Source: an uncultured Bacteroidota bacterium
GTDB lineage: Bacteria; Bacteroidota; Bacteroidia; UKL13-3
Length of the DNA: 32,032 nucleotides
NCBI GenBank assembly: GCA_903910445.1
Contig: CAIVZR010000013.1
Span: 1-32,032 of the forward strand
Direction: 5' to 3'
Shown here: piece by piece, positions 7,228 to 30,052 of the stretch
How the letters are laid out: each line of letters begins with the position of its first letter
How positions within the stretch are numbered: the first letter of the stretch is position 1
Notes under the pieces: model-generated
Seen by the model: only the letters and a program-made list of their open reading frames with translations
Databases searched by the model: none
Told to the model about the DNA's origin: nothing
Translations under genes and position numbers: made by a program

Positions 7228-10200
7228 TTATTTGTTAGAGAGATAATAAAGTTGAATTGATGTTTCGTTTAAATTCATTAATGCGGTTAGGTATCCTGAT
7301 TGGATACTAATGGCTTGATTTGTGAGCATAACCCATTCGAGATAATTGAGTTCCCCATTTTGAAACTGCTGAATGGCTGTCTCGCTTATTTTGAGAGCAT
7401 TGGGTAATGCTTCATTTTGATAATATGTAACAGCCGAAATTTGTGTTTGATAGGTTTTAATTAACGATACATAATTCAATTCCAGATTTTGCATCATTAA
7501 TTTTGTTTCATTCTCCGCAATATTAATTTGGGTTACACTCGATTTGATACGGGCTTTTTGCGATCCATAAAAAAGCGGAATACCTAATCCAGCTTGTACC
7601 GATTTGAAACGTGTGGAATTATCGTAAAACTTATTATTGGCACCCGTACCATTCATGGTCATGGTATTCAAGCCCAAGCTTAGATCGGGGAGTAGTTTCG
7701 ATTTCTCCAGTTTCATATTCGCTTCAGCTATTTGTTGTTTTTGCATGGCTGCCTTCGCCATTGGGTGCTGTTGCAATAAGTTTGCAGAACCAATACTATC
7801 AAAAGCCAATTTAAAATTTTTATCATCAGGAAAGAAACTAGAATTATTTAACAGATATTGAAATTGTAGTAACAATAATTCTTTCTCTTGTCTTAATTGC
7901 TTTAGTTGAAGTGCAATGCTGCCTCTCTGAGTTTGAGCTGTTGTTTCTTCTAAGATATTAGCTTCTCCACTCTTCAATCGCAATTTGGCTTTTTCAAGAA
8001 ACAAGGCGTAGGTACTATCATTTTTCAGAAGCAGGTTTTCTTGTTGCCCCAGGAGCGTCCATTGAAAATATACGAGTCGTATTTTTTTCTTTATCTCAGC
8101 CTCTTGTATCGATACTTCCAAAACTGATTTAATCCATTCCTCTTTTAATAATTTTGATTGCCTTTGATATACTGTTGGGAATTGAATGGACTGTGAAATT
8201 CCCAAATGCTGATCGTTATATGCACTATTCATTTGCCCGTATCCAGCGCTTATATTAAGTTGGGGGATATTAGCACCTGTTCGAATTAGTTGTTGTTGAT
8301 AGGTCGCTTTAAGTCGCTCGTTCCTAATGGTGAGATTGTTCTTCAATGCAGTATCAATCGCTGCATCAATATTAATCGGTGTTTGAGACATTCCAACCGA
8401 TGTCATTCCAAAAATCAGTATTAGGGATGCGATGGCTTTATGAGGAATTTTTTTATTAAATCCTTTTTCAAACAGAATAAATAAAACAGGAAGTACAAAT
8501 AAGGTAAGTAGGGTTGCAAATAGCAATCCGCCAATAACTACCGTAGCTAAAGGTCGTTGAACTTCAGCGCCAGCTCCGTCGCTAATCGCCATGGGCAAGA
8601 ATCCCAGGGAAGCAACAAAGGCGGTCATGAGTACTGGGCGTAATTTTATTTTTGTTCCCATTAATACAATTTTACGTGTATCGTGCCAACCTTCATTATG
8701 CAATCGGTTAAACTCAGCAATAAGTACAATGCCATTGAGTACCGCCACGCCAAAGAGTGCGATGAAACCTACACCAGCGGAAATGCTGAAAGGCATATCA
8801 CGCAATGCGAGTGCAAATATTCCACCAACTGCCGACAGTGGAATCGCGGAATAAATTAATAAACCTTGTTTCATTGAATTGAAAGAAAAATAAAGTAATA
8901 GGAAAATGAGGAGTAATGAAATAGGAACTGCAATCGCCAATCGGGCTTTTGCTGCATTTAAGTTTTCGAATGCCCCACCATAGGTGATATAATATCCAGC
9001 TGGTAATTTTAAATTTGTTTTAACTTTTTCCTGCAGGTCTTCTACGATGGATTGTACATCTCTTCCACGCACATTAAACCCTACTACGATGCGACGTTTA
9101 GCATCTTCTCGTTGTATCTGATTGGGGCCTTCTTTAATAGCCACATTCGCCAACTGGTATAAAGGAATTTGAGCACCACTTGCTGTTGGCACCAAAAGAT
9201 TTTTCACATCTTCCAAATTTTTACGTTGCTCACCAGCGAGTCGTACCACCATATCAAATCGTTTTTCACCTTCAAATACAAATCCAGTGGATTGCCCTGC
9301 GAGTCCTGTATTTACAATTCGATTGATGGTGTTTACATCCAATCCATATTGTGATAATGCGGCGCGATTGTATTCGATAATGAGTTGAGGCATGCCGCTA
9401 ACAGGCTCCACATATAGGTTACGGGTACCTTCAACAGTTTCCGAAAGTTTGCCTAATTGTGAAGCATAGAAGGCAAGGGTATCCATATTCTCGCCAAATA
9501 TTTTACATACTACATCCTGCTTAGCGCCTGTCATCAATTCGTTGAAACGCATTTGAACAGGGTATTGAAAGCTCGTGGTAACGCCTGGTACAGCCGAAAC
9601 AGCTTTCGACATTTTTTCAGATAACTCTGCAAAGGTTTTGGCAGATGTCCATTCTTTTTTATCTTTTAAGATGACCATCATATCAGCAGCTTCCATGGGC
9701 ATTGGGTCGGTGGGGATTTCTCCACTTCCAATTTTTGTCACCACTTGTTTTACCTCCGGGAATTGGGTTTTAAGAATATGTGCTGCTTGTTGCGTTGATG
9801 CGATGGTGGTTGTTAAATTACTTCCTGTAAGTACCCTCGTCTCCACTGCAAAGTCGCCTTCTTCCAAGGCGGGTATAAACTCACCTCCCATGCCAGATAA
9901 GACAATGATAGATGCAGAAAACAAAACCAAAGAAATTGCTATTACAGTTTTTGGAAAATGTAATACTTTGTCGAGTGTTGATTGGAAATGTCGTTCAAGA
10001 AATACCATGACACGATCGGAGATGGTTTGCTTATGTGTGATTTTTTTACTTAAAATCAAAGCACTCATCATAGGTACATAGGTAATTGAAAGTAAGAATG
10101 CGCCTAATAAAGCAAAGGCTACTGTTTGTGCCATTGGAATAAACATCTTTCCTTCAATGCCTTGTAAGGCAAAGGTTGGTAGGTAAACTATCAATATAAT

Positions 10201-11571
10201 TATCTGACCAAAAACAACACTTCTCGCCATGCGCTTTGATGAGCCACTCACTTCCGAATCCATTTGTTTGCGAGATAGGATATCAACATGTAGAAAATGT
10301 TTGCTATGTGTGAGTTGATGTAAAACTGCTTCAACAATAAACACAGCACCATCTACTATCAATCCGAAATCGAGCGCACCCAAGCTCATGAGGTTGCCAA
10401 TAACTCCAAAAGCATTCATCATGATAACGGCGAATAGCATGGCCAGCGGTATTACCGAAGCCACCAGAAATCCTGCGCGTAGGTTGCCCAAGAAAATGAT
10501 GAGAACAAAAAGTACAATGAGTGCCCCTTCAATTAAATTTGTCTTCACTGTACCAATGGCGTTGTTCACCATTTTTGTACGATCGAGGAATGGCTCCACA
10601 ATAACCCCTTCGGGCAACGACGATTGAATTTGCGCTACACGTTCCTTGATATTTTTGATTACATCGCTGCTGTTGGCACCCTTTAACATCATCACTACTG
10701 CGCCTGCTACTTCTCCTTCATCGTTAAAGCACATGGCACCATAGCGGGTTGCCGAGCCTAAATGCACTTCAGCAATATCTTTAAGCATCAAAGGCGAACC
10801 TGTTGATGTGTTTTTTACGAAGATGGTATTGATATCCTCCATCGAACCAACCAATCCTTCACTGCGTATATAAAGTACCGATGGCCCTTTTTCTATATAG
10901 GCGCCCCCAGTGTTTTGATTATTATTTTCAAGTGCAGTAAAAACATCATTGATGGTTAGATTGTAAGATTGAAGCTTGGCAGGGTTTACTGCAATTTCAT
11001 ATTGCTTCAGCTTACCACCAAAGCTACTTACATCGGCAACACCTTTTACGCCAAGTAACTGACGACGAACAATCCAATCCTGAATGGTACGCAATTCCAT
11101 AGGACCGAATTTAGATTCATAGCCAGGTTTGGCGCGCACCGTGTATTGATATATTTCACCTAATCCTGTTGTCACGGGACCCATAGAAACTGTTCCCACG
11201 CCTTGAGGTAAATCGGCTTGTACTTGTTGCAATCGCTCGGCTACTTGCTGTCTTGCCCAATAAATATCTGTGGCATCATCGAATACGATGGTTACCAAAG
11301 AGAGTCCGAATCGAGAGAAGCTTCGAATTTCTTTGATGCCAGAGATATTGCTATTCGCCAATTCAATTGGGAAAGTGATGAGTCGTTCGATATCGGTAGC
11401 ACCAAAGGATGGTGCAACGGTTATAACTTGTACCTGATTGTTGGTGATATCTGGCACGGCATCAATAGGCAGTCGGGTGGTTTGGTATCCACCATAACCA
11501 ATTAAGGCAAAGATGAATAAACCTATAATGAGTTTATTCCGCACGGAAAACTCAATAATTCTATTTAGCAT
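7228..11571 (-). CDS. CusA/CzcA-family heavy-metal RND pump fused to a TolC-like outer-membrane factor
   Basis: The product is 1447 residues. Residues 1-1035 are a complete HME-type RND pump: N-terminal helix, two periplasmic loops, and the proton-relay helix LGALDFGLIVDGAVFIVE with D401, D407 and E414, matching the essential D402, D408 and E415 of CzcA. A segment GEIPTDPMPMEAADMMV occupies the region where CusA relatives bind metal. Residues ~1040-1063 form a positively charged, hydrophobic stretch (KAIASLILIFGM, then TSVGMSQ) that looks like a signal peptide. Residues 1064-1447 are a TolC/OEP-like domain with long coiled-coil helices. Pump and exit duct are thus encoded as one chain, an arrangement found repeatedly in Bacteroidota. 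The pump should move divalent or monovalent metal cations (Co/Zn/Cd or Cu/Ag type; which one is not resolved). It lies between a small upstream gene (84-bp gap) and the adaptor gene (6-bp gap). Confidence 0.93.
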   Translation of the reverse strand: MLNRIIEFSVRNKLIIGLFIFALIGYGGYQTTRLPIDAVPDITNNQVQVITVAPSFGATDIERLITFPIELANSNISGIKEIRSFSRFGLSLVTIVFDDATDIYWARQQVAERLQQVQADLPQGVGTVSMGPVTTGLGEIYQYTVRAKPGYESKFGPMELRTIQDWIVRRQLLGVKGVADVSSFGGKLKQYEIAVNPAKLQSYNLTINDVFTALENNNQNTGGAYIEKGPSVLYIRSEGLVGSMEDINTIFVKNTSTGSPLMLKDIAEVHLGSATRYGAMCFNDEGEVAGAVVMMLKGANSSDVIKNIKERVAQIQSSLPEGVIVEPFLDRTKMVNNAIGTVKTNLIEGALIVLFVLIIFLGNLRAGFLVASVIPLAMLFAVIMMNAFGVIGNLMSLGALDFGLIVDGAVFIVEAVLHQLTHSKHFLHVDILSRKQMDSEVSGSSKRMARSVVFGQIIILIVYLPTFALQGIEGKMFIPMAQTVAFALLGAFLLSITYVPMMSALILSKKITHKQTISDRVMVFLERHFQSTLDKVLHFPKTVIAISLVLFSASIIVLSGMGGEFIPALEEGDFAVETRVLTGSNLTTTIASTQQAAHILKTQFPEVKQVVTKIGSGEIPTDPMPMEAADMMVILKDKKEWTSAKTFAELSEKMSKAVSAVPGVTTSFQYPVQMRFNELMTGAKQDVVCKIFGENMDTLAFYASQLGKLSETVEGTRNLYVEPVSGMPQLIIEYNRAALSQYGLDVNTINRIVNTGLAGQSTGFVFEGEKRFDMVVRLAGEQRKNLEDVKNLLVPTASGAQIPLYQLANVAIKEGPNQIQREDAKRRIVVGFNVRGRDVQSIVEDLQEKVKTNLKLPAGYYITYGGAFENLNAAKARLAIAVPISLLLIFLLLYFSFNSMKQGLLIYSAIPLSAVGGIFALALRDMPFSISAGVGFIALFGVAVLNGIVLIAEFNRLHNEGWHDTRKIVLMGTKIKLRPVLMTAFVASLGFLPMAISDGAGAEVQRPLATVVIGGLLFATLLTLFVLPVLFILFEKGFNKKIPHKAIASLILIFGMTSVGMSQTPINIDAAIDTALKNNLTIRNERLKATYQQQLIRTGANIPQLNISAGYGQMNSAYNDQHLGISQSIQFPTVYQRQSKLLKEEWIKSVLEVSIQEAEIKKKIRLVYFQWTLLGQQENLLLKNDSTYALFLEKAKLRLKSGEANILEETTAQTQRGSIALQLKQLRQEKELLLLQFQYLLNNSSFFPDDKNFKLAFDSIGSANLLQQHPMAKAAMQKQQIAEANMKLEKSKLLPDLSLGLNTMTMNGTGANNKFYDNSTRFKSVQAGLGIPLFYGSQKARIKSSVTQINIAENETKLMMQNLELNYVSLIKTYQTQISAVTYYQNEALPNALKISETAIQQFQNGELNYLEWVMLTNQAISIQSGYLTALMNLNETSIQLYYLSNK

Positions 11572-17551: not shown

Positions 17552-19939
17552 ATGTTTAAAAAATCGCATAAAATTAACATATTACTTGTAATTGTCATAC
17601 TTTTTTATGCGTGCAATACGGCAAGACGCGTCCCTCAAGGGAAAGCGCTACTTCAGGAGAATTATATAAAGGGCGTAAAAGGCGAATTGGCCGATGTCTT
17701 AGAAGGTCAAATCAGGCAACAGCCCAATCGAAAAATCCTCAATTCATTCAAATTTTTTCTCGCCACTTACAATACTTTCGATACAACGTATAAGACCAAT
17801 TGGTTTCGTAGAAAGTTCATTCGTTTGGGTGAAGAACCTGTGATATATGATAGTAGTTTGAATCACTCTTCGGCACAAAATATTGAACAAGCACTTTTTA
17901 ATTTGGGTTATTATGACGCTTCAGTAACTTGGACGGATACCATTGTGGGCAAAAAGCACAATTATGCCAAGGTTACCTATCATGTTATTGAGAATAGTAG
18001 TTATTCAATTTCCAAAGTGGACTTTTATGTGAGTGATAGATATTTGGATAGTATTGTTCAAACTGAATTATCAAATTCATATATCAAAGTTGGGAATGTA
18101 TTTAATAAGTCGGATTTTGATGGGGAGCGTAATCGAATCACGAATCAGATGCGTAACTTAGGATACTACTATTTCAATAAAGAATATATTTATTATGAAC
18201 TCGACTCCCTCATCGATTCACGAACAGTGAAGGTTAAGGTGATCATTGAAAATCCAGCGCAATTCTCTGAACATAAAATTTATCAAATCAGCGATATATT
18301 CTTAGTCATTGATAATCCATTGGAATTTCATAAGCCTGATACTCTTTTCTCTTCATATAAAAATTATTATATCAAACGCAATGGATACAATATATCCAGA
18401 GATATTTTGTTAACCAAGATATTCATTTATAAAGATGAATTGTACCGACAAAAAAACACCGTGGCTACCTACGACCACTTGAACGATTTACAATTATTTA
18501 AATATGTAAATATATTGTACGTGCCTGATACAAGTAAATGGGTACATACCATAATTAACGATCCATATCTTGGCGATTATGAATTTTTTGGAGATACAAC
18601 CAATTCACCTCCTTCGCTCAAATGTTATATAAGCATGTCGCCAATGAGCAAGTATGAGATTGTGTTTGAACCCCAGGGAATTATTTCCGACCTCACCACC
18701 ATTGGTGGAGGCAGGACAACCAACTACGGAGGGGCTTTGAATGTTTTGTTTAGGGATAAGAATATCTTATCAAAAGGAGAAACTTTCCAACTCACTGCCA
18801 ATGGTGCCTTGGCCTATCAGCTTGGAAAGTTCAATGGGAGTAACAAAAGAGAAATTGCCTACAAACAATTTGGTATCGATGCACAACTTAAAATTCCAAA
18901 ATTTGTACTCCCAGGTAATTTTAAATTTATCGATGCTCGAAGCTCAAATACCACCTATAATGCCAATTATAGTTTTGAGTCATTCCCCGAATTTAATCGA
19001 GATATTTTCGGAATTAGTAACCGATATCAAACGACACTCTTAAAATCGTTGATCCTTAATTTTGCTCCATTAGATATAAGTTTTATTCAATCAAGAATTT
19101 TAGATCAGGCATATGAGGCGATTATTAATTCGAATACGCTCACCAAGATTCAGTTTCAGCCTAAGTTTATTGTGAGTTTAAGGGCATTTGCACAATACAA
19201 TAGTAAGGTGATGATAAATAATTCGCCTATGTTTTCAGGCAGGGTAGGGGTAGAATCGTCGGGATTTCTATTGCATCAATTATCACAAAAATTAAATGCT
19301 GAGTACGACACAGCAATCAAAGCATATAAATTATTAGGAGTCCCTTATTCTCAATTTTTGAGAGGAGATGTTGATTTGCGTTATAATTTGAAATTGGGAA
19401 TTCAAAAGAGTTTTGCTTTGCGTTTTTATGCAGGCGTTGCCATTCCTAAGGTCAACTCAGAATTCACGGGTATTCCATTTGAAAAACGTTTCTTTGTTGG
19501 AGGCACCAACGATTTACGTGGATGGCGTATTCGTAAACTAGGACCCGGAAGCTATTATTATACCGATGCTCAAGATTTTTACAGGGCAGGAGATATCAAG
19601 CTAATGCTCAATATGGAGTATCGAACCTTTTTGTATAAAGCATTTAGTGGGGCGGTATTTATGGATGCGGGTAATGTTTGGAATTTAAAACTTGATGCGA
19701 GTAAACCTGGGGCTGAATTCAATCCATATAAATTTTATCGTCAGATTGCTGCCGATTTTGGTTTGGGAATTCGGTACGATTTTGATTTCTTTGTATTGCG
19801 TTTGGATGCTGCGTTTCCTTTATATGACCCACGTGATATTCCTAACGTAGCTGATAAATGGGTTATTCGTCGAATAAATAATTATGACGATTTCCAAAGA
19901 AACATAAACTTTAATATCGCCATTGGATTGCCATTCTAA
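17552..19939 (+). CDS. Omp85/BamA-TamA family outer-membrane assembly protein with lipoprotein-type N-terminus
   Basis: The 795-residue protein starts with a lipoprotein-like signal ending LFYAC (Cys21) and then ARRVPQGKALL, typical of the Bacteroidota tamL-like/BamA-like group. POTRA-type modules at ~60-330 include QNIEQALFNLGYYDASVTW and RNRITNQMRNLGYYYFNKEY. The C-terminal Omp85 barrel contains the lid-lock motif region FFVGGTNDLRGWRIRKLGPG and ends FNIAIGLPF with terminal Phe. It should insert or export proteins across the outer membrane. A lipidated Omp85 is unusual outside this phylum but known in it (TamL). The following gene starts 17 bp before this stop codon, so expression is coupled to the M48-like protein. 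Confidence 0.92.
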   Translation: MFKKSHKINILLVIVILFYACNTARRVPQGKALLQENYIKGVKGELADVLEGQIRQQPNRKILNSFKFFLATYNTFDTTYKTNWFRRKFIRLGEEPVIYDSSLNHSSAQNIEQALFNLGYYDASVTWTDTIVGKKHNYAKVTYHVIENSSYSISKVDFYVSDRYLDSIVQTELSNSYIKVGNVFNKSDFDGERNRITNQMRNLGYYYFNKEYIYYELDSLIDSRTVKVKVIIENPAQFSEHKIYQISDIFLVIDNPLEFHKPDTLFSSYKNYYIKRNGYNISRDILLTKIFIYKDELYRQKNTVATYDHLNDLQLFKYVNILYVPDTSKWVHTIINDPYLGDYEFFGDTTNSPPSLKCYISMSPMSKYEIVFEPQGIISDLTTIGGGRTTNYGGALNVLFRDKNILSKGETFQLTANGALAYQLGKFNGSNKREIAYKQFGIDAQLKIPKFVLPGNFKFIDARSSNTTYNANYSFESFPEFNRDIFGISNRYQTTLLKSLILNFAPLDISFIQSRILDQAYEAIINSNTLTKIQFQPKFIVSLRAFAQYNSKVMINNSPMFSGRVGVESSGFLLHQLSQKLNAEYDTAIKAYKLLGVPYSQFLRGDVDLRYNLKLGIQKSFALRFYAGVAIPKVNSEFTGIPFEKRFFVGGTNDLRGWRIRKLGPGSYYYTDAQDFYRAGDIKLMLNMEYRTFLYKAFSGAVFMDAGNVWNLKLDASKPGAEFNPYKFYRQIAADFGLGIRYDFDFFVLRLDAAFPLYDPRDIPNVADKWVIRRINNYDDFQRNINFNIAIGLPF

Positions 19940-20702
19940 AATATACGCTACATTATTCATTGTGTTGATCTCATTCACACAATGTATGAAGCGAGATGCT
20001 CCAATAAATCGAAACAATCAGGATATCAAAATTGGGAACTTGATTGATGCGAAACTCCAGACAGTGTTCGATTCAACAACCCTCGATTCGGTTCAATATT
20101 TACGCAATTATAAAACTTTAGATTCCTTGCAAAATGAAGTACTCACTAGTATAATCAATGACCCAAATTCATTTAAATGCAAAATTATTTTACTAAACGA
20201 TAGCACCCAGCGCTTATTCTCATCAACCAATGGAACGCTCTATATCAGCTCTGGATTACTTCGAAATTTAGAATCATATAAAGAGCTCCAGGCATTGATT
20301 TTACATCAGTTCAATCATGTTTTGCATCACGATATTTCAGATTTTTTAATTGATAAATATGGAGTCGAAACTTTTAATATGGCCGCATTGGCTCTCGATT
20401 TATACAATTTGAGCGAAATTGAAAATGACGTGCAATATATTGAGTTTAATTTCATGCAAGAGCGTGTTGCTGATGAAGCTTGCGATTCAATCATGAATAT
20501 ATTAAACCATCATGATGCTTTACCGCTTGCCTATTTAAGTTTGGGATTGGGAAGCAAGATTGGTAATCTCAATTTTTTCAAAATGCATTATAATTATATT
20601 GGCAGGGTAAACGAGTTGCTTTACAGAGCAACACATACCTCAGTGTCGAGTGCTTCAGATATTTTAGCATATCATTATTTCTTATCAAATCTACCCAACT
20701 AA
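19923..20702 (+). CDS. M48-like metallopeptidase homologue with HQxxH in place of HExxH
   Basis: The 259-residue product reads from TTG (19923-19925), the only standard start that keeps the hydrophobic signal IYATLFIVLISFTQC (possible lipid Cys21, though Gln before Cys is atypical). The core resembles M48 peptidases: GTLYISSGLLRNLESYKELQ, then LILHQFNHVLHHD, then QERVADEACDSIM. Zinc ligands H128, H132 and E180 are kept, but the catalytic Glu of HExxH is Gln129 (codon CAG, one base from GAG). It is therefore probably a non-proteolytic or greatly impaired relative. It overlaps the Omp85 gene by 17 bp and its TAA overlaps the next gene's ATG (TAATG). E. coli BepA and LoiP are M48 proteins that serve the Bam machinery, so an outer-membrane assembly or sensing role is a reasonable inference. 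Confidence 0.75.
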   Translation: MDCHSKIYATLFIVLISFTQCMKRDAPINRNNQDIKIGNLIDAKLQTVFDSTTLDSVQYLRNYKTLDSLQNEVLTSIINDPNSFKCKIILLNDSTQRLFSSTNGTLYISSGLLRNLESYKELQALILHQFNHVLHHDISDFLIDKYGVETFNMAALALDLYNLSEIENDVQYIEFNFMQERVADEACDSIMNILNHHDALPLAYLSLGLGSKIGNLNFFKMHYNYIGRVNELLYRATHTSVSSASDILAYHYFLSNLPN

Positions 20703-21478: not shown

Positions 21479-21522
21479 TATTATTTCAAACTACGAACAA
21501 AAATTAATTAATTTATTTATAC

Positions 21523-22347
21523 ATGAAATTTTATCCTATCCATCAAGTGATTGCAGCTGGAATTATATTATTAATTTCGGCATGTAATAATTTAAGTACA
21601 ACTAAAACCCAACACAAAGTGTTAATCAAAGAAGAATCTGTAAAATATGTATCGGATAGTGTAACGATGCAAGGCTTTTTGGCCTATGATGAGTCAATCA
21701 AAACAAAACGCCCCATTGTAATTATAATACCTGAATGGTGGGGATTGACTGAATATGCAAAGAGCAGGGCACGTCAACTTGCCGATTTAGGTTATCTCGC
21801 ATTTGCAATGGATATGTATGGCAATGGAGAAACGGCCGATAATCCAAGCCGTGCGGGTGAATTGGCTGGGCCATTCTATAAAAACCCAATGATAGCCAAG
21901 GCTCATTTTGATGCCGCTTTGAATGAAATGAAGAAACATGAATTGGCCGATGTATCGAAAATTGCAGCCATTGGTTATTGCTTTGGTGGTGGCATGGTTT
22001 TAAATATTGCACGCATGGGTGAAGACCTGAATGGTGCCGTAAGTTTTCATGGAAGCTTGATGGGTGTTCCTGCTGATAAGAATACTTTGAAAGCAGATAT
22101 ATTAGTACTTCATGGTGAGGCGGATCAGTTTGTAAAAGCAGAAGAGGTGGCGACTTTCAAACATGAAATGGATTCGATAGGAGCGAAGTACAAATTCGTA
22201 GGATATCCAAATGCTACCCATGCATTTACCAATCCAAATGCTACCGCGATGGGAGAGAAATTTACTATGCCCATTGCGTATAATGCTGAAGCTGATACGG
22301 CATCATGGATAGAGATGAATCAATTTTTCGAGAAGATTTTTAAATAG
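21523..22347 (+). CDS. Dienelactone-hydrolase-family lipoprotein
   Basis: The 274-residue protein begins with a lipoprotein signal ending LLISAC (Cys21), so it should be membrane-anchored outside the cytoplasm. The alpha/beta-hydrolase triad of the DLH family is present: C153 in GYCFGGG, D201 in HGEADQFV and H233 in NATHAFTNP. E71 in IPEWWGL corresponds to the Glu that tunes the Cys nucleophile. Classical DLH opens dienelactones in the cytoplasm; this exported branch has no settled substrate and may act on esters or lactones in the periplasm. It starts 44 bp after the amidase gene and is probably the last gene of the plus-strand operon; a small hairpin overlaps its stop. Confidence 0.9.
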   Translation: MKFYPIHQVIAAGIILLISACNNLSTTKTQHKVLIKEESVKYVSDSVTMQGFLAYDESIKTKRPIVIIIPEWWGLTEYAKSRARQLADLGYLAFAMDMYGNGETADNPSRAGELAGPFYKNPMIAKAHFDAALNEMKKHELADVSKIAAIGYCFGGGMVLNIARMGEDLNGAVSFHGSLMGVPADKNTLKADILVLHGEADQFVKAEEVATFKHEMDSIGAKYKFVGYPNATHAFTNPNATAMGEKFTMPIAYNAEADTASWIEMNQFFEKIFK

Positions 22348-22366
22348 GATTCTTCTATTCTTTTTT
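22343..22366 (+). terminator. Weak hairpin and T-run at the end of the plus-strand operon
   Basis: AATAG (22343-22347) and CTATT (22355-22359) form a short stem followed by C and six T residues. It sits between two convergent genes and overlaps the TAG stop. The stem is short, so termination may be inefficient. Confidence 0.35.
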
Positions 22367-22778
22367 ATTTCTTACGATGTAATAAAACTATATCCTTACC
22401 TGTTTCTCCACTAAAATTAGGTGTGCGTTCTCTATCAAAAAACACTTCCCATTTGAGGGTATCGTTGTTAATGAATACTAGTAGGCTTTTCATTGTATTA
22501 ACTTCTCCTCCATCTTCTTCTTCAATTATTATATCGAAGTGCATCGGTGACTTTGTTGTGTCGACTTGATATTTACATTCAATAGAATCAGTTGGTGATA
22601 ATACAAGTAGCAAGATGCCATTGTTCTTAACGATGATGCTTCCTGTTTCTTGAGCCGTATCAATACTTTCCCAGGTGCCAATAAGCTTCTCAGTGATTTT
22701 TGTTTGAGCAGATGTCTGAATAAAGAAGAGCGAGAATACGATGGCGATTAACTTTGAGAGTTGAGAGAGGTATTTCAT
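22365..22778 (-). CDS. Small secreted protein, lipocalin-like in outline, function unknown
   Basis: The 137 residues begin with a signal peptide (KLIAIVFSLFFIQTSA, likely cleaved before QTKITE). The mature part has KLIGTWESIDTAQETGSIIV followed by alternating beta-strand-like segments and ends GKDIVLLHRKK. The LIGTWE opening and strand pattern recall small lipocalin-like secreted proteins of Bacteroidota, but no motif proves it. It lies 73 bp downstream of the 12-heme cytochrome gene on the same strand and could belong to that transcript. It converges on the hydrolase gene with 17 bp between stop codons. Confidence 0.75.
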   Translation of the reverse strand: MKYLSQLSKLIAIVFSLFFIQTSAQTKITEKLIGTWESIDTAQETGSIIVKNNGILLLVLSPTDSIECKYQVDTTKSPMHFDIIIEEEDGGEVNTMKSLLVFINNDTLKWEVFFDRERTPNFSGETGKDIVLLHRKK

Positions 22779-22851
22779 TGACGAATTTTATTATCAGTGG
22801 TTTTGTGCTTAGAACTTTATGCAAGAAACAAAATTAATTCAATAATTGAAT

Positions 22852-23901
22852 TTAGTCATCATCATTTTCCTTGTCTTTTTTATTCTCTTTTAGGTATTTA
22901 TTAATTTTATTAATATCCTGAGTACCTCCATTACTCCCTTCACCACCATTTCTAATATCGTGTTCGTTGCCGCTTCTATGGCATGAAACACAATTATTCA
23001 AATTCGTAATACCTTCTTCTTGGTGTTCGCTTAGAATCTTGCTTTCAGAATGTTCGTGACAACCATAGCAGGTATACGTTTTAAAATTTTTATTCGTATG
23101 GCAAGTATTGCAAGATGCCGCATGATTACCATCGAGGATAAAGTAACGCGAATGCTCGAAGGTGGCTGGTTTCCATCGATCTTGTGAATGACAAGTTGTG
23201 CATGATTCGTTGCTCATTTGATGCATTCCATCATTCGGTTTTTGATGACAAGCGATACAATTTTTAGCATCTTTCCCTTGAATCATGGCATGATTAAATT
23301 TCACGTTTCCTTTCCAAGCAGTGGTATTATGGCAAGCGCCACATTCGGTAGCAATATTTTGATGCATGGCATTGCTTGGATTTAAATGACAGGCCACGCA
23401 ATTCTTCTGATTGGCAGGCTCAATTTGTTGATGATTGAAACTTGCCGATATCTTCCAGCCTTTAGTTTGATGACAGCCCCCACAATTGGTGCTACTCATT
23501 TGATGTAAACTATTTTCTGGCGGCGCATGGCAGCTCTTGCAATCGTTGGCATTGGAGGTGCTAAGTAGTGTATGCTCAAAATGATTGATATTGGCTTGTA
23601 AGCCGTGGTGGTCGGTATGGCAAGAAGTGCATTTTTGGTCAGCTAGCTGTTGATGAAAGCGTACTTTATTTCGTTGAATAGAATCAATTCCAAGGCTATC
23701 TTTTCCGATATCGGCGATGGCATGACATGAAATACATTTACTATTAGGTATTCCTTTAAATAACTCGTGGCAAGCAGAACATTCTGTATTGACTTTTTGA
23801 TGTGGCTGGATTAGTTCGCCTGGTTGAAACATCCAATGCGGAAACAAATATCCTAAGGATAAGAATCCAATAACAATTATGGAGATAAGTGCCTTTTTCA
23901 T
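22852..23901 (-). CDS. Twelve-heme c-type cytochrome (cytochrome c3/NapC-NirT-like repeats)
   Basis: The 349-residue protein has one N-terminal hydrophobic segment (ISIIVIGFLSLGYLF) serving as signal or anchor, then twelve CxxCH heme-attachment motifs between residues ~41 and ~305: CSACH, CISCH, CTSCH, CKSCH, CGGCH, CVACH, CGACH, CIACH, CTTCH, CNTCH, CYGCH and CVSCH. Recurrent FxH and MHQ elements (NHFEH, FNHQQI, FNHAMI, FEHSRY) supply the distal His ligands expected of bis-His hemes. The tail is acidic/lysine-rich and low in complexity. It should carry electrons in the periplasm. Its ATG overlaps the stop of the membrane cytochrome gene by 4 bp (ATGA), so the two are coupled and probably form a quinol-to-periplasm electron path. 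Confidence 0.93.
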   Translation of the reverse strand: MKKALISIIVIGFLSLGYLFPHWMFQPGELIQPHQKVNTECSACHELFKGIPNSKCISCHAIADIGKDSLGIDSIQRNKVRFHQQLADQKCTSCHTDHHGLQANINHFEHTLLSTSNANDCKSCHAPPENSLHQMSSTNCGGCHQTKGWKISASFNHQQIEPANQKNCVACHLNPSNAMHQNIATECGACHNTTAWKGNVKFNHAMIQGKDAKNCIACHQKPNDGMHQMSNESCTTCHSQDRWKPATFEHSRYFILDGNHAASCNTCHTNKNFKTYTCYGCHEHSESKILSEHQEEGITNLNNCVSCHRSGNEHDIRNGGEGSNGGTQDINKINKYLKENKKDKENDDD

Positions 23902-24470
23902 TTGCTATACATCAATATTGAAACGATATGAATTATAGAAAGAACTGCAAGCATTAATGTGATGGGTAGATGAACCACCCTCCATTGCTTCATTAAATCG
24001 ACTGTTATGGAATCGAAGAATAAAATCTTATCAGCCTCATCGGACATTGCACCTTGGGAGAGTAATAACTGTCGTTTTTCCTTCAATGTTTCACTTGATT
24101 TTTTAAGTAAAAACTTACCAACCAATCCGCTGCCAACGGTGATGAGTAACATGACAATAGCAAGCCATGGTAGGATAGCGTTAAAATGAATTCCAGCGTG
24201 TACTAAGAGCATGATGGAACCAATCCAACTTAGGTATTCATGAAAGAGAAGTAATTGCTTAGGAGAGCCCGAAGTAATCATTTTTCGTTTACGTGCAGAG
24301 TATATAAAGGATATTCCAATTGTTATGGTTCCAATAATCCCTAGGTATCTGCCTAACGATTCCCATTGAAAGTAATGAAGTATATAATCGATTCCAATAG
24401 CAACGATTATCATTAATGCGAACCAAAGAAAAAATGGCCAGACATACTTGGATACCAAAGGTTGTTTCAT
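23898..24470 (-). CDS. Membrane b-type cytochrome-like protein (electron donor to the 12-heme cytochrome)
   Basis: The 190 residues contain about five hydrophobic helices: ~12-32, 42-58, 76-96, 100-120 and 168-188. Paired His residues lie within or at the ends of helices: H77 (FHEYL), H91 and H95 (VHAGIHF), H167 (VVHLPIT) and H181 (IIHIVS). This is the pattern of a diheme cytochrome b561-like or ferric-reductase-like membrane protein. The loop QLLLSQGAMSDEADKILFFD lies between helices 4 and 5. With the coupled 12-heme cytochrome it may oxidise menaquinol and pass electrons outward; that role is inferred from the pairing. I do not recognise a named family. It begins 152 bp after the copper monooxygenase stop. 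Confidence 0.78.
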   Translation of the reverse strand: MKQPLVSKYVWPFFLWFALMIIVAIGIDYILHYFQWESLGRYLGIIGTITIGISFIYSARKRKMITSGSPKQLLLFHEYLSWIGSIMLLVHAGIHFNAILPWLAIVMLLITVGSGLVGKFLLKKSSETLKEKRQLLLSQGAMSDEADKILFFDSITVDLMKQWRVVHLPITLMLAVLSIIHIVSILMYSK

Positions 24471-24622
24471 AATTCCTAATTTCGAAGCAAAGTGTAATTT
24501 TCAGTTTCGAATTTCGGAATTTTATTGAACAATACTTATGATGCTGGTCAGTAAAGGCTTATTTGCAATTAGTATTTCAAGAAAAATTGAATCGAGTAGC
24601 GCAAGGGTTGAATGATGGTACA

Positions 24623-26173
24623 TTACCATTTAAACACTTTCTTCCAACCCGTTTCACCTTGCTGCGTAACTTTCAAGATATACATCCCTTGAGGCAGCGA
24701 ACTGATATTCAAGTTGTATTCAGGTTCATTAATATTAGATTTCAATCGCTCTTTTCCATCCAAATCAAAAATTGATACAGAAGCCATTTGAGGGTTGTCT
24801 AACGTTATCGTAACCTGATCATTGGCGGGATTAGGGAAGACATTAAATTCGAGAGCTGCGTTTACTAATTTAATTCCAGTGGGGTTGAGTAAGGTACTAT
24901 CCAAAATAATATTTTCATCACCTGCTTGATAATTGGTATAGGTGAAATAACATAACATCATTTCATCGGTGGTGTTTTCTCCTAGGCCAACATTCTTTGG
25001 CGGACTAGAAGGATTGAAAACATTATTCACCGTATTATCATAAACACCGACACCGTAAATTTTAGTGCCTTTAGGGAATTTTACAATCTTGCGAAAAGTA
25101 TAAGCCCCTTGCCAATGAAAATCCCAGCTAGGAATATTGCATAGTTTTAAAGTATCGTTTAAAGAAGTTACAGCAAACGTTTTATATGATTTGCCGATGA
25201 GATGCATATGCGGGGCTACTGAGATTATACTGTAATCGGCAGTATTATCCATGGTAAATAATTGATTGAAAGTCTTGACGGTATTGGCAGGAATAAAGAG
25301 TGGGCCATTGGTAATACCACCATTGACGGCGCTGATATGATTGAGAATAGGGGCAACAAAAACCTCACGTGGATTTGTTATGGTTGAATATTTGAAATGG
25401 CATGATGTGCTATCTCTTTTAGTCATGCTGCCTGGAGCGTAGTGAATTTGCATGATGTAAAAAGCATTGGCAGATACTCGAATTCCCATATTGGCAGGAA
25501 TGTCGATAAGGTTGCCTCCCGGTACCCATCCTCCAATAAGCGTTGCGGTATTACTTCCTACACCACCACCCGAACTAGAATAGCCAGGCAGCGGGTCGGC
25601 AATATCAAGATTTTTGCATGTTTGTGCATTGTCTTGGAACAATAAAATATGATGAACGATGGATAAATTTTTCGGTTCAAATTCAATTTGTGCTAAAAAT
25701 TTATCTGCTGTGATGCCCGATGGAATTACAAAGCAACGATAGTCGTCGGTATTTTTATTGACAGCGTAAGTTGGGATGCTTATAGATTTATCGGGGCTTT
25801 GCATTTTAATCCCTGTTGGGAATGTTGGTGCAATTGGGGCGGTATTCAAATCGCCAGAGGGTGCACCAGCATTCACCCAGTCGGCGATATCTGTAATTTC
25901 CTGAGTGCTTAAAACACGTTCGCCTTTGAAGTGATTATAAGTTGGATCGGCATGCCAAGGAGGCATAATTTTGGAACTAGTGGCTACCTTAATTCCGAAA
26001 GCATTGGCTTGTGCATTGGCATAGCTCGATAGAGGAAATGGAGCAATACCGCCTGTTCTATGACATTCGGTGCAATGGGTATAAATAATCTTTGCGATTT
26101 TAGAACTCCAGGTAGGAGTTTGTGAATAGGCAATTGAGCTGATGAACAGCAATAAGATGGAAATTCGTTTCAT
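24623..26173 (-). CDS. T9SS-exported cytochrome c / PHM-like copper monooxygenase fusion
   Basis: The 516-residue protein has four parts. Residues 1-17 are a signal peptide (SILLLFISSIAYS). Residues 18-~105 are a cytochrome c domain with CTECH (34-38) and a likely distal Met70 in KIMPPW. Residues ~130-430 are a type-II copper monooxygenase pair of domains as in peptidylglycine and dopamine monooxygenases: CuA ligands H174-H175 (VHHILLF) and H244 (MQIHY), and CuB ligands H322 and H324 (APHMHLIG) plus M405 or M406 (TDEMMLCYF). Residues ~440-516 are a T9SS type-A sorting domain (FNVFPNPANDQ, ending GWKKVFKW). All copper ligands are kept, so an active O2-dependent hydroxylase at the cell surface is likely; the substrate is unknown. 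A good promoter precedes it, and cytochrome genes follow. Confidence 0.9.
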   Translation of the reverse strand: MKRISILLLFISSIAYSQTPTWSSKIAKIIYTHCTECHRTGGIAPFPLSSYANAQANAFGIKVATSSKIMPPWHADPTYNHFKGERVLSTQEITDIADWVNAGAPSGDLNTAPIAPTFPTGIKMQSPDKSISIPTYAVNKNTDDYRCFVIPSGITADKFLAQIEFEPKNLSIVHHILLFQDNAQTCKNLDIADPLPGYSSSGGGVGSNTATLIGGWVPGGNLIDIPANMGIRVSANAFYIMQIHYAPGSMTKRDSTSCHFKYSTITNPREVFVAPILNHISAVNGGITNGPLFIPANTVKTFNQLFTMDNTADYSIISVAPHMHLIGKSYKTFAVTSLNDTLKLCNIPSWDFHWQGAYTFRKIVKFPKGTKIYGVGVYDNTVNNVFNPSSPPKNVGLGENTTDEMMLCYFTYTNYQAGDENIILDSTLLNPTGIKLVNAALEFNVFPNPANDQVTITLDNPQMASVSIFDLDGKERLKSNINEPEYNLNISSLPQGMYILKVTQQGETGWKKVFKW

Positions 26174-26199
26174 GGGGAAAATTAATTCTCGTTATAAAA

Positions 26200-26230
26200 C
26201 AAATATAGAGAAAAAAGTGATTGGTGGCAA
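26200..26230 (-). promoter_or_regulatory. Bacteroidota-type promoter of the monooxygenase gene
   Basis: On the minus strand TTG (26228-26230) is followed after 20 nt by TATATTTG (26200-26207). This matches the -33 TTG and -7 TAnnTTTG elements of the Bacteroidota housekeeping sigma factor. The expected start of transcription is near 26193-26197, leaving a leader of about 20-25 nt before the ATG at 26173. Confidence 0.65.
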
Positions 26231-26368
26231 GTTGAATTAATTGAATTATAGCATTGATAACTTTTGCAAAGTTCATAAAAGAATAAATAGAAAAACCCTC
26301 GATTTGCAAACCTTATTGTTGGCTTTAAATTGAAATTTTACAAATCAAAACTTTTTCAAAGTTATTCC

Positions 26369-29300
26369 CTAATTCTTCACCACTTTCTTCACCCATTGTA
26401 CCCCATCTTCATGATTTATTTTCAAGAGATAAACACCGTTACTTAGTGCAGAAGTATTGATATTGGTTGTGGTCAATAATTTTCCAGTTATAATCACTTT
26501 TCCACTCATATCACAAATGCTATAATTTGATTTTGCAATTTCTTTGGGTTCAATGAAACTGTGAATGATAAGCAGGTCGTGCATTGGGTCGGGATAAACA
26601 GCGAAGGTTTGATTGTTCCATTTCTGTATATTAATGCCATTCGTTGTAACATTTACGGTTACTGTTTTTGTAACGCTGCAAGTATTTGAATCGGTTGCTA
26701 AAACAGAATAAGTAGTATTAACGATGGGTGAAGCAATGACAACACTACCGCTGCTAGTATTCAATCCAACAGTTGGTGTCCATTGATAATTTTGCGCACC
26801 GGAGGCTGTGAGTATAACCGTTTGCCCTTTGTTGATCGTTGGTGATGATGGGCTTATCGATACCGTTGGAAGATCGTTTACAGTGATTGAAAAGTCAGCG
26901 GTATCTCTGCATTGATTATTTGAAATTGCGATGACATGATACACTGTGGAGTTAACTGGTGATGCAATTACGGTGGAAGTATTGGTGGCATTTAATCCGA
27001 GGCTAGGGTACCATTCATAATTTAATCCTCCACTGGCGGTGAGTGTGATAGCTTGTCCTTTGCATAAATAATTTGAACCTGATATTTTAGCAATAGGTAA
27101 TGGGTAAACATTGATGGTAATTTGTGCAGTATCGGCGCAGCCTCCAGCATTGGAACCTACAACAAAATAGGTGGTAGTTGTAGTTGGTTTAACATTTGCA
27201 ACCGTGGCAAAACCTCCGAGTAAACCTGGTGCTGGCAACCAGTTATAAAATAATCCACCAGATGCTGTGAGGGTTGTTTGTTCGCCAACGCATAATGAAG
27301 TATCAAGAGCAGATAAGCTCACCGTTGGGAAATTATTTACCTCAACTCGAATTGATATTGTATCGGTACAGCCATGAGAATTTAGTCCAGCCAATCGGTA
27401 TATGGTAGTAGCGGAAGGTGAAACGGTAATACTATTTGAAGATGCCCCAGCAAAGCCGTTGGTTGGAAGCCAATAATAATTGGTTCCTCCACCAGCACTT
27501 AACTGAGTACTTTCTCCAATACACAATTGCGTATCGGTTGCCTGAATTTTTAGATGTGTTGCACTGTAATAATTGAGCATGAATTCGGCAGTGTCGATGC
27601 AACCTTGCGCATTGGTACCAATCACCTTATAAAGGGTTGGTGATGGTGGATTCACCACAACAGTTGCCCCCACACTATCATTCAAGCCTGGAGCAGGAAG
27701 CCATCTATAGGTGCTCGCTCCTGAAGCCACAAGGGTGAGCGGTTTATTAGGGCAAGCACTATCTTGTGATGGGGTAATTTTAACAACTGAATTTTGATTG
27801 ACAATTATTGTAATGAAAGATGAATCGGTGCAGCCCGATGCATTTCTTGCAAACATTTTATAGGTGGTGGTTAATGATGGAGTTGCTTTTACAGTGATAC
27901 CAAAGCCGGTATCCAAGCTTGTTGTTGGTGTCCATCGATAGAATACTGCTCCTGAAGTGGCGGTTAATTGAGTGCTGTAGCCTTTACAAATTGAGGTGTT
28001 GCCTGTAACACTCTTTGCTGGAAGTGGCAATACATTGATGGTGATATAATTGGTATCGGTGCAACCATTAGTTGTTTGCATCACCACCCTATAAGTTCTT
28101 GTTGTATCAAGGGTTGCAATTACATTTCTTCCACTGGTAGTATTTAAGCCGGTAGCTGGCGACCAATTAAAAATGGTACCAATACCATCGGCGAATAGTT
28201 TTACAGGTTGGAATTTACAGGTTGTTGTTTTATCCGCAGCAATGCCAACTCTTGGTTTGCAGGCTGAGACTGTTGTGCAGCCACCTACCATTTGGCCATC
28301 AATCCAGGAGAAACGATTGAAAATCCAGTTTTTCAATGCCATCACCTCATCTTCTCGAGTATAACTAAGAGGAGAAGGGTTAGGCCATACATACAATCCC
28401 AGTACAGGCCATCGCTGCTCATTTCTTACGGCTGCATCTTTCAGGTAATTTGCTGTTGAATCTAAGAAATTACTTATTTGATTGAAGGATAAAGTTTTTT
28501 GCCGGAGCTCATTCCATCGGCAATAAAAGGCACGCACGTAAGTAGTGTCTTGTCTGAATCGTTTCCACCAAAATGGGGCCGTGGATGATAAATCAATTTC
28601 CCATCCTGTTGGGTCGGAACTATTGCCATAGTCAGCATTATTCCATGCCAGATTGAAATCCCAAATAGGCCCCATGATAAGCTTCCCTCCATGGTTATCT
28701 TTGTTTTTATAAAAATAAGAACTGAGTCGATAGCCATCTACATTTTTGCTAATTTCATTCATGATAGAAAAATCAATGAATGAATTCATGTCGGCATATT
28801 TTCTGTAACCATTGGTATCGCTTATTTGTGAGCCGTACAATGCATTTTCAAACAAGTAAACATAGTTCTTTATATAATTTAATTGTTGTGTTGTCATATC
28901 AGGGCCATTGGGATAATCGTACTGAAAATAAACACGGTTAGGTGAGCCAGGATAAGTAGGAAATGTATCCTGCCAACCTCCATTATTATTCCCTGTGGTT
29001 TTATCAATTTTAATGATATAGCCACCAGTTAAATTTACTCCTGAAGTATCGTCAATTTTTAATTTTGAAATATCTACACGATTCACATCACGCTTTATCT
29101 TTTCCATTAAAATATAAATACCTTCATAGTTTCCATTAATAAATAATTCGAAATAACGATAGCGTGTTGCATATCGGCCTGTTCGTTTTGCAAGTTCGTA
29201 GGTGAGTACATCGCGCATCAACGATTTATCGTTATAGGTTGCATTAAGAATCCAATCGTGTTCGGGAGGCATTCCTAATAAGGAAGTATTGCTATCCAAT

Positions 29301-30052
29301 CCAGTACCATCGACTGTGCTAAAGCTATAGGGCTTTTTGGGAAAGCTTTGAGAAGATGAACCTCGTGTTTCAATGGTAATACGATGGGTGTAAAATCTCG
29401 TAGTATCGGCAATCTTATTTAAAGAGGTATCAATGCTAACGATGCACATGCGAGCATTAACTCTCGATGCGTCGGGGATGCCTTGATTGAAGGTATTCAT
29501 CCACATGATGGGTAAGTTTGAATTGATGAAAGGAAATGGCTTGGAAGGATTACTTGAGAAGATTAAACTCCATCCTAATAAACTTCCGGCATCGCTACTT
29601 TTCTTGGAATCAAAAATCATCAACTTCCAAATTCCATTCGGGTTTTGGCCATTATTCACGGCACTTAATGAAGCTTCAGGTCGGAAGCTACCAGTGAAAG
29701 GCGCATTGGCATTCACTATTTTATTGGTAGTATTATTTGTGAAAATACAATTGGTATAATTGTCACCACTTCCTCCATTTTTTGTACTTAATTCAACGGT
29801 AACGCCATTAGGTGAAACCAAGAAGATATTCAAGTCGGCATCATTAGGGTGGGAGATATTTACCACGACTCCATAAACACCAAAATTAGTATCGATATAG
29901 TTATTGCCCATGCTAACTGATTGTGTATAGAAATTGGGCACGCTATCGTTGGTAATAGACCCTCCCGTTCCATTATAAACTTGGGCAGTAATTGCACCAT
30001 GGAACAAAAAGAGCGTTGAAAATAATAATATAACGCGTAAAACGTATTTCAT
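26369..30052 (-). CDS. T9SS-secreted CotH-kinase-family protein with P-domain and seven Ig-like repeats
   Basis: The 1227 residues begin with a signal peptide ending HGAITA. Residues ~25-170 are a proprotein-convertase P-domain (VVVNISHPNDADLNIFLVSP, then NPNGIWKLMIFDS). Residues ~195-590 are a CotH domain with FELFINGNYEGIYILMEKIK (~301-320) and GPIWDFNLAWNN (~463-475), the blocks that carry the ATP- and metal-binding residues of CotH protein kinases. Seven ~77-residue Ig/PKD-like repeats follow (~595-1140), each with C-x-G near the start and xGCxD near the end; the seventh has lost the first Cys (SPTINKGQ). The T9SS type-A domain ends the protein (FAVYPDPMHD, ending VKKVVKN), with Asp replacing the usual Asn of YPNP. 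Bacillus CotH phosphorylates spore-coat proteins; the target here is unknown. Confidence 0.92.
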   Translation of the reverse strand: MKYVLRVILLFSTLFLFHGAITAQVYNGTGGSITNDSVPNFYTQSVSMGNNYIDTNFGVYGVVVNISHPNDADLNIFLVSPNGVTVELSTKNGGSGDNYTNCIFTNNTTNKIVNANAPFTGSFRPEASLSAVNNGQNPNGIWKLMIFDSKKSSDAGSLLGWSLIFSSNPSKPFPFINSNLPIMWMNTFNQGIPDASRVNARMCIVSIDTSLNKIADTTRFYTHRITIETRGSSSQSFPKKPYSFSTVDGTGLDSNTSLLGMPPEHDWILNATYNDKSLMRDVLTYELAKRTGRYATRYRYFELFINGNYEGIYILMEKIKRDVNRVDISKLKIDDTSGVNLTGGYIIKIDKTTGNNNGGWQDTFPTYPGSPNRVYFQYDYPNGPDMTTQQLNYIKNYVYLFENALYGSQISDTNGYRKYADMNSFIDFSIMNEISKNVDGYRLSSYFYKNKDNHGGKLIMGPIWDFNLAWNNADYGNSSDPTGWEIDLSSTAPFWWKRFRQDTTYVRAFYCRWNELRQKTLSFNQISNFLDSTANYLKDAAVRNEQRWPVLGLYVWPNPSPLSYTREDEVMALKNWIFNRFSWIDGQMVGGCTTVSACKPRVGIAADKTTTCKFQPVKLFADGIGTIFNWSPATGLNTTSGRNVIATLDTTRTYRVVMQTTNGCTDTNYITINVLPLPAKSVTGNTSICKGYSTQLTATSGAVFYRWTPTTSLDTGFGITVKATPSLTTTYKMFARNASGCTDSSFITIIVNQNSVVKITPSQDSACPNKPLTLVASGASTYRWLPAPGLNDSVGATVVVNPPSPTLYKVIGTNAQGCIDTAEFMLNYYSATHLKIQATDTQLCIGESTQLSAGGGTNYYWLPTNGFAGASSNSITVSPSATTIYRLAGLNSHGCTDTISIRVEVNNFPTVSLSALDTSLCVGEQTTLTASGGLFYNWLPAPGLLGGFATVANVKPTTTTTYFVVGSNAGGCADTAQITINVYPLPIAKISGSNYLCKGQAITLTASGGLNYEWYPSLGLNATNTSTVIASPVNSTVYHVIAISNNQCRDTADFSITVNDLPTVSISPSSPTINKGQTVILTASGAQNYQWTPTVGLNTSSGSVVIASPIVNTTYSVLATDSNTCSVTKTVTVNVTTNGINIQKWNNQTFAVYPDPMHDLLIIHSFIEPKEIAKSNYSICDMSGKVIITGKLLTTTNINTSALSNGVYLLKINHEDGVQWVKKVVKN

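Follow-up and report, generated by a model that had tools for sequence, protein, structure and literature searches.

A heme c-fused PHM/DBH-type monooxygenase beside a cytochrome pair in a Bacteroidota genome: one oxidative system or two?

Does a copper monooxygenase gene that stands next to two cytochrome genes share an electron path with them, or only a place on the chromosome? The question is raised by three minus-strand genes spanning positions 22852-26173 of a 32,032-nucleotide stretch of DNA from an uncultured Bacteroidota bacterium (the whole stretch is called the window below; its features are collected in Table 1). In animals, PHM/DBH-type enzymes take their electrons from ascorbate. 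The sequence-only reading of this locus had proposed that respiratory-chain electrons reach the monooxygenase through the cytochromes instead. Its gene set, including the gap at 24471-24622, was confirmed by minus-strand open reading frames of 516, 190 and 349 aa, and the last protein contains exactly 12 CXXCH motifs as claimed. The “quinol-to-12-heme electron path” is an interpretation rather than an observation. We favor, with fair confidence, a reading in which a self-contained heme c-fused bicopper monooxygenase and an independent quinol/multiheme pair stand side by side.

Table 1. Positions of the features discussed (window coordinates; residue numbers refer to the monooxygenase).
Feature	Position	Strand	Basis
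Dodecaheme c protein, 349 aa, 12 CXXCH	22852..23901	-	Cytochrom_CIII 1.6e-14
190-aa multi-helix membrane protein, probable diheme b cytochrome	23898..24470	-	invariant His pattern
152-bp gap, monooxygenase to cytochrome pair	24471..24622	.	sequence scan
Heme c-fused PHM/DBH-type monooxygenase, 516 aa	24623..26173	-	Pfam, PDB profile search, AlphaFold2 model
Monooxygenase domain layout: signal-peptide-like N-terminus (by eye); heme c domain; bicopper core about 126-416; T9SS tail 445-513			
Heme c attachment motif CTECH, residues 34-38	26060..26074	-	invariant in aligned relatives
Gap upstream of monooxygenase with -7-like element	26174..26368	-	sequence reading
1227-aa CotH/P-domain/Ig_7 T9SS protein	26369..30052	-	domain hits and congener comparison

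As a single sequence the 516-aa protein scored just below the Pfam cut-offs for both Cu2_monooxygen (4.6e-6, 27.3 bits, cut-off 30) and Cu2_monoox_C (2.1e-4, 21.3 bits, cut-off 23); in the genome search the latter reached 23.5 bits and thus passed its cut-off. A profile built from 45 family members retrieved DBH (2.2e-12) and PHM (2.6e-11) from the PDB sequences. The AlphaFold2 model (pLDDT 90.9) superimposes on PHM (6ala) with a Z-score of 23.8 and an rmsd of 2.6 over 258 residues, and on DBH (4zel) with a Z-score of 23.2. In the family profile alignment H174, H175 and H244 as well as H322, H324 and M405 fall on the copper positions of PHM/DBH, whose ligands we take to be three His for CuH and two His plus one Met for CuM. 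All six positions are invariant in 44/44 aligned relatives with identity down to 29%, a sign that the bicopper active site has been preserved. Fold, ligand conservation and profile hits together bear out the assignment as a PHM/DBH-type bicopper monooxygenase.

W350, F352 and Q355 are invariant and peculiar to this family, so its substrate side may not be like that of PHM. At the position of PHM Arg240, presumably the residue holding the peptide carboxylate, the family profile alignment has Ala in place of Arg, and neither Pfam nor NCBIfam found a PAL lyase domain within the monooxygenase protein. Because both the Arg and the PAL domain are missing, a peptide-amidating function was judged unlikely. 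Unlike PHM, the enzyme probably does not act on glycine-extended peptides.

The N-terminal domain resembles a class I cytochrome c, with a CXXCH followed by a distal Met (M70). The residues C34, C37, H38 and M70 are invariant in the same 44 relatives, an alignment that comprises 44 of the 68 other monooxygenase rows collected and leaves out 24, including one row (L118) that begins at a contig edge and lacks the CXXCH. This row is the only exception among the 69 rows, window included, the other 68 having kept the motif. Cytochrome_CBB3 matches 15 of the 45 aligned members, the copy in the window not being among them. A search with the copper domain only (PF03712, 247 genomes of the phylum) gave 26 proteins. 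Sixteen of them, including the one in the window, combine CXXCH with MPP(W/Y/F), and all of these have copper motifs of the VHH/PHMH type; nine have motifs of the SHHF/SHxH type, four with CXXCH lacking MPP and five lacking CXXCH; the remaining one (L174) is cut at a contig edge. These motif counts indicate that heme-free bacterial homologues exist and that the fusion looks fixed in the motif group of the window. With copper-ligand and heme c positions that do not vary across 44/44 relatives, the heme-copper fusion marks a bacterial family, which was found in 191 of 395 genomes of the class.

The sequence-only reading had given the protein a CTECH heme motif and a T9SS tail. Both hold: CTECH occurs a single time, at residue 34, and the C-terminus matches Por_Secre_tail in Pfam (1.3e-15). 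The C-terminal domain of the model superimposes on the mirolase CTD with a Z-score of 12.4, and the genome encodes a PorU sortase (1242.7 bits, above cut-off). Judged from these sequence features the monooxygenase is probably surface-exposed. The tail is not universal, Por_Secre_tail matching only 34 of the 45 aligned family members, and surface display may therefore not be part of the core function of the family.

Less can be read from the 190-aa protein by similarity. Its six His are invariant in 18/18 aligned sequences, window included, and four of them form pairs with a spacing of 14 residues, H77/H91 in predicted helix 70-95 and H167/H181 in predicted helix 163-188; the others are H32 and H95. 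Two His pairs about 14 residues apart on two membrane helices correspond to what we take to be the spacing of diheme b cytochromes. The copy in the window has no Pfam or NCBIfam match at E 0.01, and its relatives give weak matches to Ni_hydr_CYTB (5/18 members, best 3.9e-4) and DUF4405 (7/18 members, best 0.0045). Of the multi-His membrane cytochrome in the sequence-only reading, a membrane protein with a diheme-b His pattern is supported. The structure model is mediocre (pLDDT 72, pTM 0.51); a fold search with it gave 58 matches with E values of 10 or below, none of them at 0.001 or better, which does not imply novelty of the fold, and neither do the 0 hits of the protein's profile against PDB sequences. 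The 12-heme protein has a hydrophobic N-terminus (by eye) and an acidic C-terminal tail. Its gene shares a 4-base overlap with the 190-aa gene, and the two were adjacent in 19/19 loci read, a count that leaves out a weak match in G412 (E 8.5e-9) and a distant second pair-like cluster in G003 (L062). The pair is probably an inner-membrane quinol/multiheme module consisting of a diheme b protein and a periplasmic multiheme c protein.

The idea of one conserved oxidative system fails on co-occurrence and on gene order in relatives, a test that the sequence-only reading had itself set. The gene order is absent in relatives with the exception of one close genome, G003, where the pair also adjoins a monooxygenase 92% identical to that of the window genome (G000). 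The monooxygenase is absent from 18/18 other stretches around the pair, an absence that weighs less where stretches are short or a contig end is near the pair (L121, 8.1 kb; L126, 6.1 kb; L059, L061, L119); G003 does carry both. Conversely, the pair is absent from 20 of 21 other monooxygenase stretches, the exception again being G003 (of 26 stretches, L072, L142, L143 and L145 were dropped as the gene was not recognised). Among the 395 class genomes the monooxygenase occurs in 10 of 18 with a match to the 190-aa gene vs 181 of 377 without one (Fisher p 0.63, the weak G412 match being counted among the 18), so that 181 of the 191 monooxygenase genomes have no match to it. One respiratory oxidative system as a conserved unit is rejected on these data; genes lying side by side on one contig turned out to be no evidence of an electron path.

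The same-genus genome G001 has the monooxygenase in the orthologous chromosomal place without the pair, which sits on another contig beside rubrerythrin and sensor-kinase genes; the two are on different contigs in G019 and G037 as well. The gene for the 1227-aa T9SS protein adjoins the monooxygenase also in the congeners G001 and G003. Beyond genus-shared genes, the only families seen near the monooxygenase were ones common to two loci (Q9, Q10, Q13, Q14). The adjacency in G000 and G003 could have arisen either by insertion of the block 21479-24622, which also includes a hydrolase and a 137-aa gene, or by its loss from that place in G001. Nothing in G000 or G003 matched the DUF2231-like gene that accompanies the pair in G001, so the search for an empty donor site came up blank. 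The pair gene trees are poorly resolved: a group of the window, G003, G001 and G002 was not rejected (p-AU 0.088) and one of the window, G003 and G001 alone was borderline (p-AU 0.043), both groups having been picked with the tree already at hand. The pair may have come by horizontal transfer or by vertical descent with relocation.

In the 152-bp gap no terminator-like site, sigma-70-like site or TAnnTTTG motif was found. Upstream of the monooxygenase, TATATTTG starts 34 bp before the start codon and fits what we take to be the Bacteroidota -7 consensus. The scan ran at background level, with 13 promoter-like sites vs 15.5 expected and 1 terminator-like site vs 2.8 expected, and is uninformative. 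Local co-transcription is possible given the adjacency in two genomes, the common strand, the gap length and the lack of a terminator-like site in the window.

Such a local arrangement leads to a narrower proposal, namely that in the G000/G003 lineage electrons from menaquinol travel via the 190-aa diheme b protein and then the 12-heme protein until they reach the surface monooxygenase at its heme c. We regard it as very improbable. The shared strand, the gap without a terminator-like site, the adjacency kept in G003 and parts that are redox-compatible in principle would fit, yet this adjacency is confined to two genomes, the 18 other pair stretches lack the monooxygenase and co-occurrence is at chance level. 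Moreover, the pair looks inner-membrane while the monooxygenase is sent outside, and an outer-membrane porin-cytochrome part was among none of nine neighbouring proteins scanned.

The neighbours of the pair in some relatives, among them rubrerythrin, VIT1-rubrerythrin, histidine kinase and DUF2231-like genes, could point to another partner. The pair could serve peroxide or iron handling, with electrons running from quinol through diheme b and multiheme c to a periplasmic rubrerythrin lipoprotein. Rubrerythrin lipoprotein-like genes lie near it in L056, L057 and L059 (Pfam was run on L056 and L059), L127 has a VIT1-rubrerythrin gene and L128 a BLAST homologue of it. These are only 5 of the 18 other loci, though; no rubrerythrin was recognised among the genes that flank the pair in the window, and the DUF2231-like neighbour has no match in G000. 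We consider this role rather unlikely. The monooxygenase domain, in turn, might not carry out O2-dependent hydroxylation at all and instead store or sense copper or heme, or persist as a structural relic, as the lack of a known substrate, the missing peptide-carboxylate Arg and the family-own W350, F352 and Q355 could suggest. Six copper-ligand positions held invariant over such divergence speak against it and make it improbable.

For the preferred reading of two separate systems the following course can be envisaged. The monooxygenase would most likely first enter the periplasm, where its heme is attached, and the T9SS would then carry it across the outer membrane to the exterior. Its His/Met heme c may accept electrons one at a time from a donor that is periplasmic or external and hand them to CuH, probably replacing ascorbate as electron donor; CuM would bind O2 and hydroxylate the substrate. 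The 190-aa and 12-heme proteins would work separately, as diheme b and periplasmic multiheme c in the manner of Geobacter CbcL. Only tentatively, and with slightly more doubt than trust, do we extend this to a widespread, apparently undescribed bacterial PHM/DBH-type bicopper family, mostly T9SS-displayed, whose built-in cytochrome c replaces ascorbate and lets electrons of respiratory or extracellular origin power an O2-dependent hydroxylation outside the cell.

With the heme-fused branch present in about half of the sampled class genomes, nature would offer an enzyme with a likely donor in the same polypeptide. If the built-in donor is true, electron entry and CuH-to-CuM transfer become testable by heme mutants in the PHM/DBH superfamily, and O2-dependent surface chemistry would be added to Bacteroidota. 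In textbooks PHM and DBH figure as animal enzymes, which make amidated peptides and noradrenaline. A table in a 2020 review places both under eukaryotes only (PMC7435645), and we found no description of a heme c-fused bacterial PHM/DBH protein in the open-access literature searched.

With PHM the monooxygenase of the window has the fold and the six copper-ligand positions in common; unlike PHM it is bacterial, carries a fused heme c and a T9SS tail, and lacks the PAL domain and the peptide-carboxylate Arg. DBH shares fold and ligands as well, and both have an extra N-terminal domain. In DBH this is a DOMON domain. In the present protein a CXXCH cytochrome c domain takes that N-terminal place, and T9SS export is predicted. 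The heme domain of cellobiose dehydrogenase has a part in electron supply to LPMOs. In that system a redox donor likewise feeds a copper monooxygenase, but the copper fold is unrelated and the donor is a separate enzyme; cellobiose dehydrogenase is a redox enzyme giving electrons to these copper monooxygenases (PMC5987398). The cytochrome pair, compared by architecture alone with the Geobacter inner-membrane cytochromes CbcL and CbcBA, is like CbcL in its general layout, a membrane di-heme b domain plus a periplasmic nine-heme c domain (PMC9129911). CbcL joins its six-helix membrane domain and c domain in one polypeptide, whereas in Bacteroidota the layout is split over two genes, one for the 190-aa membrane protein and the other for a protein with 8-12 hemes.

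If the window protein is regarded alone, both Cu2_monooxygenase domains fall just short of the Pfam cut-offs (27.3 against 30 bits and 21.3 against 23 bits). The profile of the 45-member family matches dopamine beta-hydroxylase (2.2e-12) and PHM (2.6e-11); the alignment puts the copper ligands of these two enzymes on H174, H175 and H244 (CuH) and on H322, H324 and M405 (CuM). Superposition of an AlphaFold2 model (pLDDT 90.9, pTM 0.77) gives Z scores of 23.8 against PHM and 23.2 against DBH. Profile and model together argue for a genuine PHM/DBH-type monooxygenase. The C-terminal domain resembles T9SS sorting domains in sequence (1.3e-15) and in fold (Z 12.4), and PorU is encoded in the same genome (3.43 Mb in 107 contigs, one of which, at 32,032 bp, is the window in full); the tail domain is frequent in the family but not general (34/45 aligned members). 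Peptide amidation is unlikely as a function, because the family profile alignment has Ala in place of the Arg that in PHM holds the peptide carboxylate.

Genes around the monooxygenase in the window
Feature	Coordinates	Strand	Transcription order
CotH/T9SS protein	26369-30052	-	first
Monooxygenase	24623-26173	-	second
190-aa membrane protein	23898-24470	-	third
12-CXXCH protein	22852-23901	-	fourth

The sequence-only reading gave correct coordinates, and its CTECH motif, 12 hemes and 152-bp gap are all present in the sequence. The CotH kinase-like protein comprises a P-domain, Ig_7 repeats and a T9SS tail, and adjoins the monooxygenase also in G001 (same genus) and G003 (a close relative). Elsewhere in the window, a 1447-aa RND pump with a C-terminally fused outer-membrane efflux (OEP) domain (7228-11571) adjoins a CusB/HlyD-like adaptor (6088-7221); together they possibly serve heavy-metal or copper efflux.

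To describe the heme fusion across the family we collected 68 rows besides the window. No variation was seen at C34, C37, H38, M70 or any of the six copper ligands in the 44 relatives that were aligned out of these 68. With the window included, CXXCH is kept in 68/69 rows, the sole exception beginning at the edge of its contig. None of the 69 rows has lost M70 or any of the five His copper ligands, and the Met ligand is retained in 68/69, the remaining one being a gap in a fragment. Since the 69 rows came from a query containing the heme domain, we searched 247 phylum genomes with just the copper domain (PF03712) as a control, which yielded 26 proteins in 24 genomes, 24 of the 26 above the cut-off. 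CXXCH followed by MPP(W/Y/F) occurs in 16 of them, window included, and all 16 possess VHH/PHMH-type copper motifs. Nine carry SHHF/SHxH-type motifs, four with CXXCH but without MPP and five without CXXCH; one protein is truncated at a contig edge. The five proteins without CXXCH mean that heme-free bacterial homologues exist. The window protein sits in a group, set by motifs, in which the heme fusion looks fixed, and the alignments indicate that the fused heme domain is a family trait.

The stretches L166, L167, L168 and L172 encode bacterial Cu2_monooxygenase-type proteins with CXXCH, without MPP and with SHHF/SHxH copper motifs, which suggests more than one heme-bearing group. Tandem heme-fused copies occur in G046 (two; L065, G046:C47) and in G340 (four; G340:C38:34226-40497). 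The closest named matches found for the tail-less monooxygenase are Bacteroidetes MAG contigs of 95% and 79% identity, probably G003:C49 and G001:C19 themselves; more remote relatives, about 30% identical, come from MAGs of Myxococcales and Deltaproteobacteria.

The sequence-only reading had proposed the monooxygenase and the cytochrome pair (the genes of the 190-aa six-His and the 349-aa 12-heme protein) as one respiratory-chain-driven oxidative system, to be checked by synteny. Neither synteny nor co-occurrence bears out its conservation past two close genomes. Among eight genomes with pair matches, the monooxygenase stands beside the pair only in the window's own and in G003, whose contig stops within the 190-aa gene, so that any 12-heme gene would lie beyond its end. 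Both are on different contigs in G001, G019 and G037; the monooxygenase matches listed for G002 and G012 comprise the tail only, the best in G004 has E = 2.6e-7, and the class search gave none at 1e-30 in G002 and G004. The adjacency is found in none of the 18 other pair loci: a tblastn search with the tail-less monooxygenase against these and G003 matched G003 only, several of the 18 stretches being short or reaching contig ends close to the pair. In G001 the monooxygenase is flanked on one side by four genes common with the window and on the other by the CotH gene; the intervening block 21479-24622 (hydrolase, 137-aa gene, pair) is absent, and so, further out, is the peptidase-like gene (19923-20702). 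The G001 pair is located on a separate contig.

At E up to 1e-30 the monooxygenase is found in 191/395 class genomes; for the 190-aa gene the figure is 18/395 at E up to 1e-8, one match being weak. Counted by hand from both genome lists, the monooxygenase is present in 10/18 genomes with the 190-aa gene compared to 181/377 others (Fisher p 0.63). Of the 22 monooxygenase stretches where the gene was recognised, the window among them, only the window has a multiheme gene within three ORFs; the 190-aa gene is present in the window and G003 only, and no neighbour family outside the genus occurs in more than two loci. The pair is a module separate from the monooxygenase.

In the model that we favour for the monooxygenase, heme c would be the entry point for electrons, CuH their relay and CuM the O2 site, with the reaction placed at or outside the outer membrane. 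Fold, ligands, heme fusion and tail are established by the results above, and the route of the electrons, the location and the activity are inferred. In view of the synteny results, heme c probably draws on a general reductant of the periplasm or the extracellular space. In the table of a 2020 review (PMC7435645), PHM and DBM appear only among eukaryotes. Searches of the open-access literature, which do not extend to subscription papers, listed no paper describing a bacterial PHM/DBH with a fused heme c; unreviewed database annotation of this architecture may well exist. What still deserves attention is the family of heme-fused monooxygenases.

The pair genes are adjacent in 19/19 loci examined (window, L056-L061, L119-L130) and matched in the same 8/58 genomes, a tally that includes the window's and takes in a distant G003 match and a broken G012 copy. 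The 190-aa protein keeps each of its six His in 18/18 aligned sequences, two pairs being spaced by 14 residues, and it fits a diheme b cytochrome, the sequence match to a named family being weak. Neighbours of the pair in the remaining 18 loci include DUF2231-like proteins (8/18; the one scanned reached 26.2 bits, the cut-off being 26.4), rubrerythrin lipoprotein-like genes (3/18), VIT1-rubrerythrin homologues (2/18) and a sensor kinase with response regulator (3/18). An acidic tail forms the C-terminus of the 12-heme protein (22852-22870 in the window) and of its homologues, the final residue being Asp in 19/19 aligned sequences, window included; the DUF2231-like neighbour in L056 likewise terminates in DDD. 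Distant kin of the pair in L062 (G003:C19) and L131 (G412) comprise proteins of 275-280 aa and 444-447 aa, followed by proteins with at least 20 CXXCH.

CbcL is described as a di-heme b membrane domain joined to a nine-heme periplasmic domain (PMC9129911). The pair resembles it in its probable diheme b membrane part and its multiheme c part, and by this analogy would most likely work like CbcL.
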